A stretch of 11,157 nucleotides of DNA. It comes from Bacilli bacterium. Lineage in GTDB: Bacteria; Bacillota_I; Bacilli_A; RF39; UBA660. A model generated the notes under the pieces. The model saw nothing but the letters and a program-made list of their open reading frames with translations, searched no databases and was not told where the DNA came from. Shown one piece after another: positions 2,458 through 11,157 of this stretch. The stretch spans positions 1-11,157 of the forward strand of contig JAQUEG010000010.1 of assembly GCA_028685275.1 (NCBI GenBank), written 5' to 3'. The stretch's first letter is position 1; each line of letters opens with the position of its first letter. A program made the translations under genes and the position numbers.

Positions 2458-4440
2458 TTAGCCTAATTGTCCATATAATTCAAACATTGGTAAAATAACA
2501 GATAATAGGATAAAACCAACAATGACAGTAATAAATACAATCATAACTGGTTCAATAAATGTTTTTACCTGATTAACAGCAGTTCGATGTTCTTCTTGAT
2601 AATAATCAGCTACTTTATCCATCATTGAACCTGGTTGACCTGTTCTTTCCCCAGTTAACAACATTTCATAAGCTACGATCGGAAAAGCCCAATGATTCTT
2701 AAATGAATTAGAAATTGATTCACCTCTCGCAATATTAGTAATAGTATCAAAAATAAGCATTTTATAAATTTCATTATTAGTAATCTTACTTAAAATTTCC
2801 ATACTATCGGTAATAAAAACATTATGATTTAATAATGATGCAAAGGTTTTAGCAAACATAGTAACTTCATTATAAATGATAATCTTTCCAACTACTGGTA
2901 AATGCATTAATAACCACTGGATTAGTGTTTTAAACATCTTAACATTAGAGTAAATAGCAATTGAGCCACCAATTGCTGCTATTAATCCTAGAATTAAATA
3001 TAAAATATTTCGTTGTAAATAATCACTAATAGTAATTGTAAAACGCGTAATTACCGGTAATCCCCCCCCCATATCTTTATACATTTCGACAAACTCAGGA
3101 ATAACAAAAATCATAATAAAAGAAATAACCGTAATCGCAAAAATAAAAATTACAGTTGGATAAGTCATGGCTGAAATCATTTGTTTTCTTGTTTTATGAA
3201 TAACCGTATAATAATCCGCCATACTATCTAAAGTCTCTGGTAAATTACCAGCAAGTTCAGCTGATTTAATCATATTAACTAACAATCGCGGGAAAGCTTT
3301 TCCTTGTTTTGCTAAAGCTTCACTAAAACTTTCACCCATTGTTAATTCATATACAATAGAACGATATAAATCTTTTTTTTCTTTCTTTTTATTTTGTTTT
3401 CCTAAAATTTTTATCGCATCAACTAATGGAATCCCAGCTTTAATATAAGTTGATAATTGGGTTAATAAAAATACTAATTCGCTGGTTTTTACTTTGTTAT
3501 AACCTTTTTTTCCAAAATTTAAACCTTTAAATGTTTCTATTTCATATATTTCATATCCTTCTGCTAATAAATAAGAATGAACATCTAACTTTGAATAAGC
3601 AGATAATTTCCCTTTTTCAATTTTACCATCAGAATTTTTACCAGTATAACGATACATAATCTTTTCTTCACTTCTAACTTCATCTGATCCTTCAAAATCA
3701 ACTAATAAAGTCTGCCTTTTCATTTCCATTCTATTTCTTCTATCCCTAACAAAGGATAAGTTACCATACCAATCAATAAGCCCTTTTTTTATTTTTTGTG
3801 GTAATTGAGCTAAACTTTTTATCCAATCCTTCGTTTTATCAATTATATTTTCAATTAAATCCCAAACTGAAACAATTAATTTTTTGATAAAACTATAAAT
3901 AAATACAAATGGATAAATAAATATTTTATAAACACCAATACTAATAAATTTTATTGCTAACCAAAAATAAAGCGGAATTTTACTTATTAATTTTAATAAA
4001 TTAATTACTTGTCCCACTATAAATTTAATAATATTTATAATTAATAAAACAACTTGTTTTAAAACATAATATATTTTTTGTAAAATTAAAACAAGCCCAC
4101 GATATATATTTTTAAATATTAAAAAAATATATTTACTAATTTGGATAATAATTAATGCAATTATTTTATAAGTATAAATAATAACTGTTTGTCCACCTTT
4201 AAACAAATATAGCAAAACATATTTTAAGCCTTTATAAAGTAAAACAATTATTGTTTTTATAGATTGAAATAACACAATAACTATCTTTCTTATTATTAAA
4301 TATAAGTTAACACCAATAATTTCAATTAATTTAGCAAAATACTTGATCATAATTAAAAAATAATGAATTATTCTTTCAAAAACAATAAAAACACCTAAAC
4401 TAAAATATTTAAATGGTAGTATCACACTTTTTAAAAGCAT
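2458..4440 (-). CDS. pilC: PilC/ComGB/GspF-family pilus platform protein with long amphipathic N-terminal extension
   Basis: This is the inner-membrane platform protein of type IV pilus, competence or type II secretion systems, which couples the assembly ATPase to pilin polymerisation. With ATG at 4440 it is 660 residues, against about 350-410 for the family. The C-terminal 400 residues are standard: a MYRYTGKNSDGK start near 262, a first T2SSF domain (about 319-445, with LSTYIKAGIPL and the AELAGNLPETL block), a second domain (about 522-650) and the terminal hydrophobic helix ending in ILPMFELYGQLG. Residues 1 to about 250 are an unusual Ile/Leu/Tyr/Lys-rich stretch with basic residues at an 11-residue period (70, 81, 92, 103, 114, then 128, 139, 150). 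A run of nine G's on the coding strand encodes Met-Gly-Gly-Gly near 457-460. It is the first gene of a unit with the prepilin peptidase. The family is certain; the role of the extension is unknown. Confidence 0.93.
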   Translation of the reverse strand: MLLKSVILPFKYFSLGVFIVFERIIHYFLIMIKYFAKLIEIIGVNLYLIIRKIVIVLFQSIKTIIVLLYKGLKYVLLYLFKGGQTVIIYTYKIIALIIIQISKYIFLIFKNIYRGLVLILQKIYYVLKQVVLLIINIIKFIVGQVINLLKLISKIPLYFWLAIKFISIGVYKIFIYPFVFIYSFIKKLIVSVWDLIENIIDKTKDWIKSLAQLPQKIKKGLIDWYGNLSFVRDRRNRMEMKRQTLLVDFEGSDEVRSEEKIMYRYTGKNSDGKIEKGKLSAYSKLDVHSYLLAEGYEIYEIETFKGLNFGKKGYNKVKTSELVFLLTQLSTYIKAGIPLVDAIKILGKQNKKKEKKDLYRSIVYELTMGESFSEALAKQGKAFPRLLVNMIKSAELAGNLPETLDSMADYYTVIHKTRKQMISAMTYPTVIFIFAITVISFIMIFVIPEFVEMYKDMGGGLPVITRFTITISDYLQRNILYLILGLIAAIGGSIAIYSNVKMFKTLIQWLLMHLPVVGKIIIYNEVTMFAKTFASLLNHNVFITDSMEILSKITNNEIYKMLIFDTITNIARGESISNSFKNHWAFPIVAYEMLLTGERTGQPGSMMDKVADYYQEEHRTAVNQVKTFIEPVMIVFITVIVGFILLSVILPMFELYGQLG

Positions 4441-4456
4441 CCGGTTGCACCTCCCC
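4438..4456 (-). promoter_or_regulatory. Ribosome binding site that fixes the pilC start
   Basis: The minus strand has GGGGAGGTG (4448-4456) followed seven bases later by ATG (4438-4440). An in-frame TTG at 4458 would give a protein six residues longer, but it sits immediately before this SD and has none of its own. The ATG at 4440 is therefore the likely start. Confidence 0.85.
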
Positions 4457-4482
4457 AAACATAAGGGAACTATTATAATAAG

Positions 4483-8522: not shown

Positions 8523-8545
8523 AAAAACAATCTATAAAATAGATT
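8523..8545 (-). terminator. Possible Rho-independent terminator after rplT
   Basis: Overlapping the rplT stop, the minus strand has AATCTAT, a TTT loop and ATAGATT (perfect 7-bp stem, 8529-8545), followed by GTTTTT. The stem is AT-rich (one G-C pair), so it is weak on paper. Its position and T-tail suit the end of the infC-rpmI-rplT transcript. dnaG begins about 60 bases further on, so some read-through into dnaG is possible. Confidence 0.5.
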
Positions 8546-9161
8546 ATTTTGTCTTTGGTTCTTTTTTAACTGCCGGCTTTTTTACCGTGCTTTTTTTAAT
8601 GGTATCAGTTTTTTTACTCTCACTTACTTTTTTCGGTTCCTTTTTAACTACTGGCTTTTTTGCTGTGCTTTTTTTAGTTGTACTTGTTTTTTTGGTCTCA
8701 GTTGTTGTGTTTGGTTCTTTTTTTACTGTTGGTTTTTCCTTAATTACTGTTTTCTTAGTAACATCTTGTTCCTTAACTTTAATTTCTTTTGGTTTATATT
8801 CTTTTCCATTTAAAGCATCTACAGCAATAGCTACTAAATCACTAAATGCTTTAGGATTATCAATTGCTAATTCCGATAACATTTTACGATTAATTAATAA
8901 TTCCGCTTTATTTAAACCATTAATAAACTTTGAATAACTAATATTATTTTCACGGCAAGCAGCATTTATCCTTGTAATCCATAATTTACGAAAATTCCTT
9001 TTATTTTGCTTACGATCACGATAAGCATAAACAGATGAATGCATTACTTGTTCTTTAGCAGTTCGATATAAACGATGTTTACTACCAAAATAACCTTTAG
9101 CTTGTTTTAAAACCTTTTTATGACGGGCACGGGTAACACTCCCAGTTTTTACTCTTGTCAT
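8544..9161 (-). CDS. rplT: 50S ribosomal protein L20 with a Lys-rich repeat tail
   Basis: L20 is an early assembly protein that binds 23S rRNA. In Firmicutes it also represses its own operon by binding the infC leader. Residues 1 to about 119 are a complete ordinary L20 ([20 protein letters not shown] start, [19 protein letters not shown], then the globular part to [11 protein letters not shown]). The family normally stops here at 115-120. This protein continues to 205 with a tail of Lys, Thr, Pro, Glu, Ser and Val that contains two exact-period 26-residue repeats (148-173 and 174-199) plus remnants at each side. The tail is highly basic and probably disordered. The SD is GGAGGG five bases before ATG. 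It lies 23 bases after rpmI. The L20 call is secure; the tail's purpose is unknown. Confidence 0.96.
8565..8720 (-). repeat. Two tandem 78-bp repeats in the rplT tail
   Basis: Two adjacent 78-base units (8643-8720 and 8565-8642) encode 26-residue repeats of the pattern KEP...KK-T-x-T-x-KKST-x-KKP-x-V-K. A short third copy follows (KEPKTK, 8547-8564), and a degenerate copy with KEKPTVK precedes. The landmark GGTT(C/T)(C/T)TTTTT recurs at 8557, 8635 and 8713 on the plus strand, exactly 78 apart. Reading frame is kept, and substitutions are spread over the units, so the duplication is not very recent. Confidence 0.9.
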
Positions 9162-9925: not shown

Positions 9926-9930
9926 ATAAT

Positions 9931-10066
9931 AATTATAAAAGTGAATACAAAGTATTCACTCAAATCCTAAGAAATTATATACAATATAAAAACTAAGGCA
10001 TAAACCTAAAGCTACTTAGCAATCAGGTGAGATAAATACATCTGCTTTCCTTTTTATAAATTTATA
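9931..10066 (-). ncRNA. Probable L20-type leader RNA of the infC operon
   Basis: About 150 nt separate the expected transcription start (near 10066) from infC. This is the size and position of the L20 leader that controls infC-rpmI-rplT in Bacillus by transcription attenuation. The RNA contains a 5' element with AGAU...AUCUCACCUG (about 10043-10024). A CUAAG segment (10019-10015) can pair either with the nearby CUUUAG or with the more distant CCUUAG (about 9994-9999), which suggests alternative folds. It ends in a terminator-like hairpin. The L20-binding fold was not modelled, so the class assignment is by context. Confidence 0.55.
9935..9960 (-). terminator. Attenuator hairpin in the infC leader
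   Basis: The minus strand reads AGTGAATAC, TTT, GTATTCACT: a perfect 9-bp stem (arms 9952-9960 and 9940-9948) with a three-base loop, followed by TTTATAATT. It lies ten bases before the TATGGAGGTG of infC. A Rho-independent-type hairpin between promoter and first gene is what an attenuation leader requires. The T-run is short. Confidence 0.65.
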
Positions 10067-10206: not shown

Positions 10207-10491
10207 TTAATCCTTCTTTACTTCTATATGATGTTCTTTTAAATATTTCATTATATTTTCATATTGTTCTTCTTTCATCGGTTTACATCTTTTTGGATCT
10301 ACCCCATTTTTAATTATTTGTTCCGCCATTCCAGGACATCCACCAAAACCACACGCACCACAATTATAACCTGGTAACATATTTAAAACTGCTTCTAAAC
10401 GACGATTAACACGATTTAAAAAATAATTTGTTAATACTAATAACGTACTAAATAAAAACGCTATTAATGTTATAATTACAATTCCTTTCAT
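10207..10491 (-). CDS. rnfB: Short RnfB-like subunit, N-terminal Fe-S domain only
   Basis: RnfB normally takes electrons from ferredoxin into the Rnf complex. This 94-residue protein has an N-terminal membrane helix (about 3-24), the family block LNMLPGYNCGACGFGGC and the four-cysteine set C44, C47, C52, C69 (C-x2-C-x4-C-x16-C) for one [4Fe-4S] cluster. It then ends with a Lys/Glu-rich helix at VKKD. Full RnfB proteins run to about 190-330 residues with further 8-Cys ferredoxin domains. None is present here, and no Cys-rich frame continues after the stop at 10207, so this is not a simple frameshift. It starts at ATG with GAGGG upstream and overlaps the preceding small gene by four bases (ATGA). 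The order A then B is the normal end of an rnf operon. A separately encoded ferredoxin partner is a possibility (inference). Confidence 0.88.
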   Translation of the reverse strand: MKGIVIITLIAFLFSTLLVLTNYFLNRVNRRLEAVLNMLPGYNCGACGFGGCPGMAEQIIKNGVDPKRCKPMKEEQYENIMKYLKEHHIEVKKD

Positions 10492-10622
10492 TTAATATCC
10501 CTCTTTTCACAATTATGAATATTACAATTATTACAATCACCACATTTAGGAAAATTAGTATTCTTTTTATATAAAATTAAAGTAATAATAACTAAAATAA
10601 TAGTGAATATATAACCTAACAT
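10488..10622 (-). CDS. 44-residue membrane-anchored Cys-rich small protein
   Basis: This short frame lies between rnfA and rnfB. ATG at 10622 follows GGAGG by five bases, and that SD overlaps the rnfA stop. The frame ends in TGA (10488-10490), overlapping the rnfB ATG. Both junctions argue for real, coupled translation. Residues 2-18 form one hydrophobic helix (LGYIFTIILVIITLILY) followed by two lysines. The rest is a cytoplasm-sized tail with four cysteines, C27, C30, C33 and C38 (C-x2-C-x2-C-x4-C). The layout resembles FeoB-associated Cys-rich membrane proteins and is close to, but not the same as, a ferredoxin cluster motif (C-x2-C-x2-C-x3-C). Function unknown; metal or Fe-S binding in the Rnf complex is an inference. 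Confidence 0.8.
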   Translation of the reverse strand: MLGYIFTIILVIITLILYKKNTNFPKCGDCNNCNIHNCEKRDIK

Positions 10623-10623
10623 A

Positions 10624-11157
10624 CTAACCTCCAATATAACGCAAAAATATTAAAGCCATAATCCCTGCTGTAATTAAAGCAATTGGAAAATCAGTAAATG
10701 ATTTAATAATAGGATTAGTTCTTATTTTTTCTCTAATTGTTGAAAATATATATATTACTAATAAAAACCCAATACTACTACCAAAAGCAAAAACAATCGT
10801 CTGGATTAAATTATAATTATTAAAAACATTTAATAAAATTACTCCTAATACTGCACAGTTGGTAGTTATTAATGGTAAATATAAACCTAATAATTTATGT
10901 AAACGGGGAAAATATCGACGCATAATAATTTCAATCATTTGGACTAATGACGCAATTACTAAAATAAAGACAATAGTTCGTAAATACTCAGTATTAGTTG
11001 GAATCAAGATATAATGATGAATAAAGTATGTAAGGATACTAGAAACTGTAATAACTAAAGTAACCGCTAATCCCATACCAAGACCGCTTTCTTCATCATC
11101 AGAAACACCAACAAAAGGACAAATACCTAAAAATTTAGTTAAAATAATATTTTGGGT
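10624..11157 (-). CDS. rnfA: Electron transport complex subunit RnfA, 5'-truncated by window edge
   Basis: RnfA is an integral membrane subunit of the Rnf ferredoxin:NAD+ oxidoreductase (ion pump); with RnfE it holds a membrane-embedded [2Fe-2S] cluster. 177 residues are visible, and the frame stays open to the last base. The true start lies outside the window by about 10-15 residues; the internal ATG at 11076 is not the start. Seen: NIILTKFLGICPFVGVS (visible 3-19), GMGLAVTL, EYLRTIVFILVIASLVQ and LPLITTNCAVLGV. The two cluster cysteines are at visible positions 13 and 101. LPLITTNCAVLG and GICPF distinguish RnfA from its paralogue RnfE. The gene ends in TAG within the SD of the next small gene. 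rnfC, D, G and E would be expected beyond the right edge. Confidence 0.93.
   Translation of the reverse strand, partial: TQNIILTKFLGICPFVGVSDDEESGLGMGLAVTLVITVSSILTYFIHHYILIPTNTEYLRTIVFILVIASLVQMIEIIMRRYFPRLHKLLGLYLPLITTNCAVLGVILLNVFNNYNLIQTIVFAFGSSIGFLLVIYIFSTIREKIRTNPIIKSFTDFPIALITAGIMALIFLRYIGG

Follow-up and report, generated by a model that had tools for sequence, protein, structure and literature searches.

Why should a short, cysteine-rich reading frame of 44 codons sit between rnfA and rnfB, and what might its product contribute to the Rnf pump? The window, by which we mean the whole stretch of 11,157 nucleotides analysed here, comes from a fragmented assembly, 82% complete, whose 166 contigs add up to 874 kb. 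On its minus strand, running in from the contig end, lie rnfA, the 44-aa frame, rnfB and then what we take, from reading the sequences, to be infC, rpmI and rplT. The frame translates from 10622 to 10488 as MLGYIFTIILVIITLILYKKNTNFPKCGDCNNCNIHNCEKRDIK and is closed by a stop codon; its layout is one hydrophobic helix, followed by basic residues and then a Cys motif. The ATG at 10622 stands one base beyond the rnfA stop (TAG, 10626-10624), and the TGA overlaps the rnfB start codon (ATG, 10491-10489) in an ATGA. An earlier note on this DNA had described a strong Shine-Dalgarno sequence at the end of rnfA, the ATGA overlap with rnfB, a single membrane helix and a C-x2-C-x2-C-x4-C cluster, and each of these is borne out (Table 1).

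Table 1. Features of the rnfA-rnfB junction, in window coordinates
Feature	Position	Strand	Details and basis
Cys-rich single-TM microprotein, 44 aa	10488..10622	-	start 10622, stop TGA 10490-10488
Shine-Dalgarno GGAGG of microprotein	10628..10632	-	within last codons of rnfA, 5 nt before ATG; sequence
Shine-Dalgarno AGAGGG of rnfB	10499..10504	-	inside microprotein gene; sequence
Predicted transmembrane helix, about residues 2-19	10566..10619	-	N-out/C-in; hydropathy and positive-inside rule
Cys motif C27-x2-C30-x2-C33-x4-C38	10509..10544	-	predicted cytosolic; from translation
rnfA, 5' end beyond contig end	10624..11157	-	Pfam Rnf-Nqr 2.6e-51
Short rnfB, 94 aa, TM plus one Fe-S domain (FdI)	10207..10491	-	PF04060 4.6e-11

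The flanking genes are readily placed. Against TIGR01943 the rnfA product scores 228.2 bits (1.1e-67; cut-off 229.3), its 5' end being lost at the contig end, and the named loci closest to it, at 59-62% RnfA identity, come from Bacilli or Firmicutes MAGs. Residues 13-70 of the window RnfB match residues 17-75 of the 274-residue RnfB in PDB 7zc6 (E 4.1e-7), and scans with Pfam and NCBIfam profiles found neither a Fer4 match nor a polyferredoxin domain in it. The earlier note is silent on the shortness of this RnfB. The window's own microprotein falls outside every Pfam and NCBIfam family at cut-off. Elsewhere on the same strand, an L20 leader-like RNA lies upstream of infC at 9927-10053, its 32.4 bits (E 7.6e-4) falling short of the Rfam gathering score, 58.7; a ribosomal protein L20-like frame of 205 aa (8544-9161) runs on at its C-terminus for about 85 residues, rich in Lys and Thr, beyond what we presume to be the normal length of L20; and a GspF/PilC-like frame of 666 aa (2458-4458), with a TTG codon at an unsure start, has about 250 N-terminal residues, with repeated hydrophobic-aromatic segments, beyond a norm that we likewise assume.

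Frames in low-GC sequence often stay open, and this one might be such an accident, never translated. When the 136-nt stretch was shuffled 20,000 times with dinucleotides preserved, 136 shuffles contained an open frame of 32 aa or more, and none a frame with both a TM stretch and the three-Cys motif. For the relatives of the microprotein, 17 pairs, fixed before the computation and shortened by 12 nt at the start and 9 nt at the end, gave a pooled dN/dS of 0.16 (pS 0.472, pN 0.108; one pair holds no synonymous and one non-synonymous change), against 1.18 and 1.64 when the same alignments were shifted by one and two bases. By this measure the relatives are under purifying selection. Furthermore, the position between rnfA and rnfB is conserved and the gene co-occurs with RnfA, as set out below. 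Shuffles, dN/dS and synteny together rule out a chance frame, to which we assign a very small probability, and the comparisons show the 44-aa frame to be a genuine protein-coding gene. A recoded TGA in the window was also ruled out: its seven long open reading frames hold 13 TGG codons and no internal stop, as expected under the standard code.

How widely the arrangement occurs was assessed by a census of rnfA loci. RnfA is present in 58 of the 386 genomes of the window's family and in 214 of the 395 of its class. A script classed 179 class loci, drawn from those of the matches that were fetched, some genomes supplying more than one; the family contributes 58 of them, from 57 genomes and with the window included. 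A Cys-rich single-TM frame separates rnfA from rnfB at 123 of the 179, rnfA leads straight to rnfB at 51, and 5 are undecided; within the family the corresponding counts are 53, 2 and 3. The earlier note had staked its claim on conservation in relatives that keep rnfA-rnfB, and a frame that recurs at so many family and class loci under purifying selection has passed that comparison; for the most part, the note's reading is upheld. The undecided family loci include one in G101 that a contig end truncates; a second contig of G101 has a microprotein match at its end. Two genomes of the family, G143 (96% complete) and G139 (93%), possess rnfA-rnfB, and no microprotein was found in them with either the short-form or the long-form profile. 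At the rnfA-rnfB junction, L074 (from G143) and L073 (from G254), which belong to the same genus, differ by a clean loss of the microprotein in one of the two.

Beyond the class, 80 named rnfA loci were compared, a set that partly overlaps the class census (L098, L099 and L104 appear to correspond to G082, G290 and G627). The microprotein gene occurs at three of these, all from MAGs named Bacilli or Firmicutes. An RnfB with Fer4 motif follows rnfA at 58, none of which has the microprotein, so the earlier note's premise that canonical operons run directly from A to B holds elsewhere; at 17 no RnfB follows rnfA, and at L100 and L104 an RnfB lacking Fer4 is found with no microprotein there. An RnfA tree was drawn up with 160 rows, of which 97 have the gene at the junction, 51 lack it and 12 are outgroup; it omits the five undecided rows, L079 and every other family row that carries the gene. 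The junction label needs seven changes on this tree, compared with 49.9 for shuffled labels, and 0 of 500 shuffles came as low. Thus, few gains or losses at the junction need be invoked.

The proteins themselves fall into two forms. The 122 distinct microproteins divide into 54 short forms, scored at 32-50 aa and all belonging to the window's family, and 68 long forms of 52-85 aa. Long forms share the pattern TM-LNKKTPxPxGCE...CxxC...C, with three Cys invariant among 39 aligned; 39 aligned short forms have two invariant and one nearly invariant Cys. The core C-x2-C-x2-6-C is present in 68/68 long and 51/54 short sequences, the spacing in short forms being variable and three of the 54 lacking the core. 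Every one of the 122 has at least three Cys, and 464 of the 471 Cys lie at or past the C-terminal end of the helix. Mean net charge over the 12 residues after the TM segment is +2.26 in short and +1.56 in long forms, compared with 0.00 and -0.16 before it. Since the Cys follow the helix and the flank behind the helix is positive, the tail is predicted to be cytosolic. Profiles of the two forms align by hhalign at 95.5% over 24 columns that match over the helix, and their presumed orthology would rest mainly on position.

In protein databases the family is only partly visible. As a single query the 44-aa sequence found only itself; the long-form alignment recovered 55 relatives, called 'hypothetical protein' where they are named at all, in Faecalibaculum, Allobaculum, Faecalicoccus, Erysipelotrichaceae, Haloplasmataceae and unplaced Bacilli. 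Five short forms are present, including the window's own, the other four being 35-43 aa long. The earlier note's remark that the gene is too short for gene calling is therefore only partly right: those four short forms are on record and long relatives are annotated, as in Faecalibaculum rodentium. Among the matches listed in a literature search on Rnf, NqrM and FeoB-associated proteins, titles and abstract openings describe no counterpart of the microprotein.

Absence from the junction is often not absence from the genome. The long-form profile was run on 44 genomes whose junction had been read and lacks the gene, and 38 have a homologue elsewhere (E <= 1e-6); no match was found in the other six (G139, G143, G582, G606, G618 and G684). 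Six positive-control genomes matched necessarily, their sequences being in the profile. None of the 14 off-junction places that were read, out of the 38, belongs to an rnf operon: 11 copies lie between genes that read as phosphohexomutase-like and ung-like (uracil-DNA-glycosylase-like), and three beside a gene that reads as dCMP-deaminase-like, a gene that follows rnfB in another family. No FeoB-like neighbour was recognised at these 14 loci. A few of the other 24 genomes, which have further RnfA matches, may hold a second rnf operon. A search near rnf for a second Cys-rich small TM frame, at 52 loci (51 lacking it at the junction, and L185, which has it), yielded none that passed the filter.

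Across the class the gene tracks Rnf closely. The long-form profile matches 181 of 214 rnfA-positive genomes versus 3 of 181 rnfA-negative ones; in the three (G553, G570 and G615), no RnfA turns up even when the threshold is E <= 1e-10. This profile is blind to short forms, matching none of the seven family rnfA genomes in the class sample, six of which have the gene by position. The 26 other rnfA-positive, profile-negative genomes, which were inspected because they are negative and so provide no independent test of a link with short RnfB, comprise 12 Nqr-like cases (by reading, an RnfA homologue and then an NqrF-like protein), eight with a long polyferredoxin RnfB (25-30 Cys, apart from one that a contig end truncates and that has 11), one with the gene in place (G595), and five with short RnfB. 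Of the last five, four assemblies are 55-84% complete and G618 is 98% complete with 6% contamination; all are in 130-340 contigs. Within the family, the short-form profile matched 12/12 positives outside its build set, several of them near relatives of build rows, and gave no credible match in 43 rnfA-negative genomes, where its best hit (G162, 1.9e-5) is the helix of a 221-aa frame.

The link with a short RnfB emerges more directly from 171 class loci selected solely by their RnfA. RnfB is without a Fer4 motif at 120/120 loci with the microprotein and at 50/51 without it, and at all 120 of the former it is of the short one-domain kind, the domain being doubled in three, all of one family. In these three (L188, L204 and L244) RnfB carries two tandem FdI-type Fe-S domains (184-194 aa, 8 Cys) beside the microprotein. 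L270, the only one of these loci whose RnfB does have a Fer4 motif, lacks the microprotein; it groups with Enterococcus on the RnfA tree and looks like a replaced Rnf. Taken together, these results show a gene that much of the class has conserved, that goes with Rnf complexes whose RnfB is short, and that many genomes keep away from the junction.

Such an association invites the main rival to the reading we prefer, namely that the microprotein is a redox subunit: a seventh, stoichiometric component of Rnf whose membrane-tethered Fe-S site would replace the polyferredoxin part and pass ferredoxin electrons to the FdI domain of RnfB. We regard this as possible but unlikely. The corollary, about equally doubtful, is that much of the class may possess a distinct type of Rnf in which a mini Fe-S protein of 32-85 aa and a one-cluster RnfB form a two-peptide ferredoxin port. 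A subunit would fit the exclusive pairing with Fer4-less RnfB, the Fer4 locus that lacks the microprotein, the polyferredoxin and Nqr-like systems among the 26 profile-negative genomes (selected as negative), translational coupling on both sides, a predicted topology the same as that of the RnfB anchor, and the existence of Rnf complexes that do without both the microprotein and RseC, a candidate counterpart considered below. It is harder to reconcile with short RnfB directly after rnfA at 50 class loci, with the departure of the gene from the junction in many genomes, and with proteins of 32-36 aa whose three Cys are variably spaced, which would make an unusual fixed redox relay. Nor did a search of the PDB return any chain at E <= 0.5 for the short or the long form, so that no resemblance to a subunit in solved structures emerged; we know of no solved Rnf structure from this class. 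Thermotoga maritima provides a further point against it. Like that of the window, its RnfB is short, 10.56 kDa with one predicted cluster, and the purified complex is active with this one-cluster RnfB and the usual rnfCDGEAB set, according to PMC7414866. T. maritima does have RseC, which served as a search control, and no microprotein is mentioned in the passages of PMC7414866 consulted.

A different origin is suggested by the FeoB-associated Cys-rich membrane proteins (PF12669), which resemble the microprotein in layout, size and Cys pattern and are prevalent in Firmicutes, as stated in PMC8749426. The microprotein might be a branch of these dedicated to Rnf, supplying ferrous iron locally with no single cofactor as its target. 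Among the matches listed, PF12669 is the most frequent family (23/39 short and 16/39 long forms at E <= 1), one short form (L058) exceeds its cut-off of 27 bits with 30.4, and hhalign gives 91% and 89%, over only 9-20 columns of the Cys stretch. However, the other 38 of 39 short forms fall below the cut-off, the window protein at 15.4 bits; the best long form (E 5.8e-4) scales to well under 27 bits; and the gene, which tracks rnf, adjoins rnf and not feoB, as its place at 123 of 179 class junctions illustrates. We therefore consider this branch improbable.

Two better understood proteins serve as models for an accessory role. NqrM (PF04400, DUF539) is, like the microprotein, a small protein with a single N-terminal TM helix and a Cys-rich tail, encoded with a homologous pump. 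According to PMC12174285, NqrM 'seems to' be required for [2Fe-2S] insertion in NQR, and the Fe-S site of NqrD/E that it is held to serve is homologous to that of RnfE/A. The microprotein shares this layout of one N-terminal TM, Cys tail and pump-linked gene, the gene being unlinked in many genomes. Five NqrM sequences fetched from Vibrio, Aliivibrio and Methylobacter have four Cys after one helix; they differ from the microprotein in that the first Cys lies in GSCGG and the spacing is C-x11-C-x-C-x3-C in four of the five. By hhalign, NqrM aligns with the long forms at 63% over 58 columns dominated by the TM segment, and with the short form at 21%; as a sign of kinship the former is suggestive only. 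PF04400 gave no line at E <= 10 for the window protein and ten relatives scanned, and is absent from the best 25 of 44 families for 39 long forms and the best 25 of 32 for 39 short forms. As a separate observation, genomes of Vibrio (L287 and L290) and Aliivibrio (L286 and L289) each have two NqrM matches; in the 3 kb that were read, only one of the two has nqrF- and apbE-like neighbours.

RseC (RseC_MucC, PF04246) similarly places a Cys-rich cytosolic part on a membrane anchor and has three conserved Cys. PMC11729352 describes a CX5CX2CX5C motif whose last three Cys are conserved and can bind an O2-sensitive Fe-S cluster, and reports that RseC is needed for SoxR reduction in E. coli; it is also reported to be required for autotrophic growth of C. 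ljungdahlii and is interpreted there as regulating rnf. In architecture it differs from the microprotein: RseC frames are mostly of about 150 aa and have their Cys part ahead of two TM helices, whereas the microprotein has one, before its Cys. The microprotein core C-x2-C-x2-6-C (119/122 sequences) is similar to the C-x2-C-x5-C of RseC, mostly without identical spacing, and the best PF04246 match among 11 microproteins scanned singly had an E of 4.9. RseC hiding in the class was searched for and found to be nearly absent: 14 of 395 genomes match at E <= 0.001, and one, partially, over the cut-off. Among the named Rnf genomes, 26 of 38 other than three Bacilli MAGs have RseC over cut-off, as does none of those three. 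Since RseC is nearly missing here and common elsewhere, the microprotein may fill the niche that other organisms fill with RseC.

These comparisons lead us to favour, at a little under an even chance, the reading that the microprotein is an iron- or Fe-S-binding Rnf accessory that works like NqrM or RseC and serves the Fe-S cofactors through which electrons enter. Metal binding we infer from the cysteines only. One helix would anchor the protein and three to five cytosolic Cys would hold iron or a labile Fe-S cluster; coupling of its translation to that of rnfA and rnfB would put it where both proteins are made; and it would there insert or repair the intramembrane [2Fe-2S] of RnfA/E, the single [4Fe-4S] of the short RnfB, or both. 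Such an accessory is favoured because the gene is kept after leaving the operon (38/44 genomes), because RseC is wanting in the class and the one-cluster Rnf of T. maritima is active with no extra subunit reported, because NqrM offers the layout and RseC a three-Cys Fe-S precedent, and because the gene co-occurs with RnfA, 20 of the 26 misses being Nqr-like or having a polyferredoxin RnfB.

Several results stand against an accessory. Eight class genomes with a polyferredoxin RnfB have neither a microprotein nor an RseC match, and, once the Bacilli MAGs are set aside, 12 of the 38 named Rnf genomes have no RseC over cut-off; from the genomes lacking both proteins, Rnf is evidently made without microprotein or RseC. 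The similarity to NqrM is weak, and RseC, with its Cys part before the helices, gives no significant match. In addition, the Cys spacing of short forms is variable, with three sequences departing from the core; G143, G139 and five class genomes with short RnfB yielded no match; and three matches occur where there is no RnfA. Small single-TM peptides commonly stabilise complexes, and a non-redox role, structural or regulatory, is a further alternative: the microprotein could stabilise RnfB or act as a thiol or Zn redox sensor, with the Cys that every sequence retains binding Zn or forming switches. Iron is favoured by the near-invariance of three Cys in a system rich in Fe-S clusters and by the RseC and NqrM precedents, and we think a non-redox peptide decidedly improbable. 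On balance, the microprotein probably helps to build or feed the Rnf pump by binding iron.

Other departures from the usual operon were seen among the loci read. At L080 (3126-4662) and L082, RnfD and one or two FMN-binding domains of the RnfG type form a fusion (PF03116 + PF04205). A separate single-TM frame of 29-36 aa (like MKxKIKxILVLTLTALICSxLLYLVY) precedes rnfE in most loci, namely L080, L082 and 17 of 21 further family loci scanned, and from its sequence looks like the membrane helix of RnfG split off as a microprotein of its own. In the stretches read at L091 (G038) and L093 (G047), rnfDGEAB stands without rnfC; by reading, one cluster is followed by NuoE/NuoF-like genes and the other preceded by cytochrome bd-like genes, and their Rnf cores are perhaps coupled to other partners.

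Rnf powers many anaerobes, and the microprotein offers a testable handle on how its intramembrane [2Fe-2S] cluster comes to be inserted and how electrons from ferredoxin enter a one-cluster RnfB. Furthermore, heterologous expression of the Rnf of this class may need one extra gene, one that is called a 'hypothetical protein' or is not called at all.
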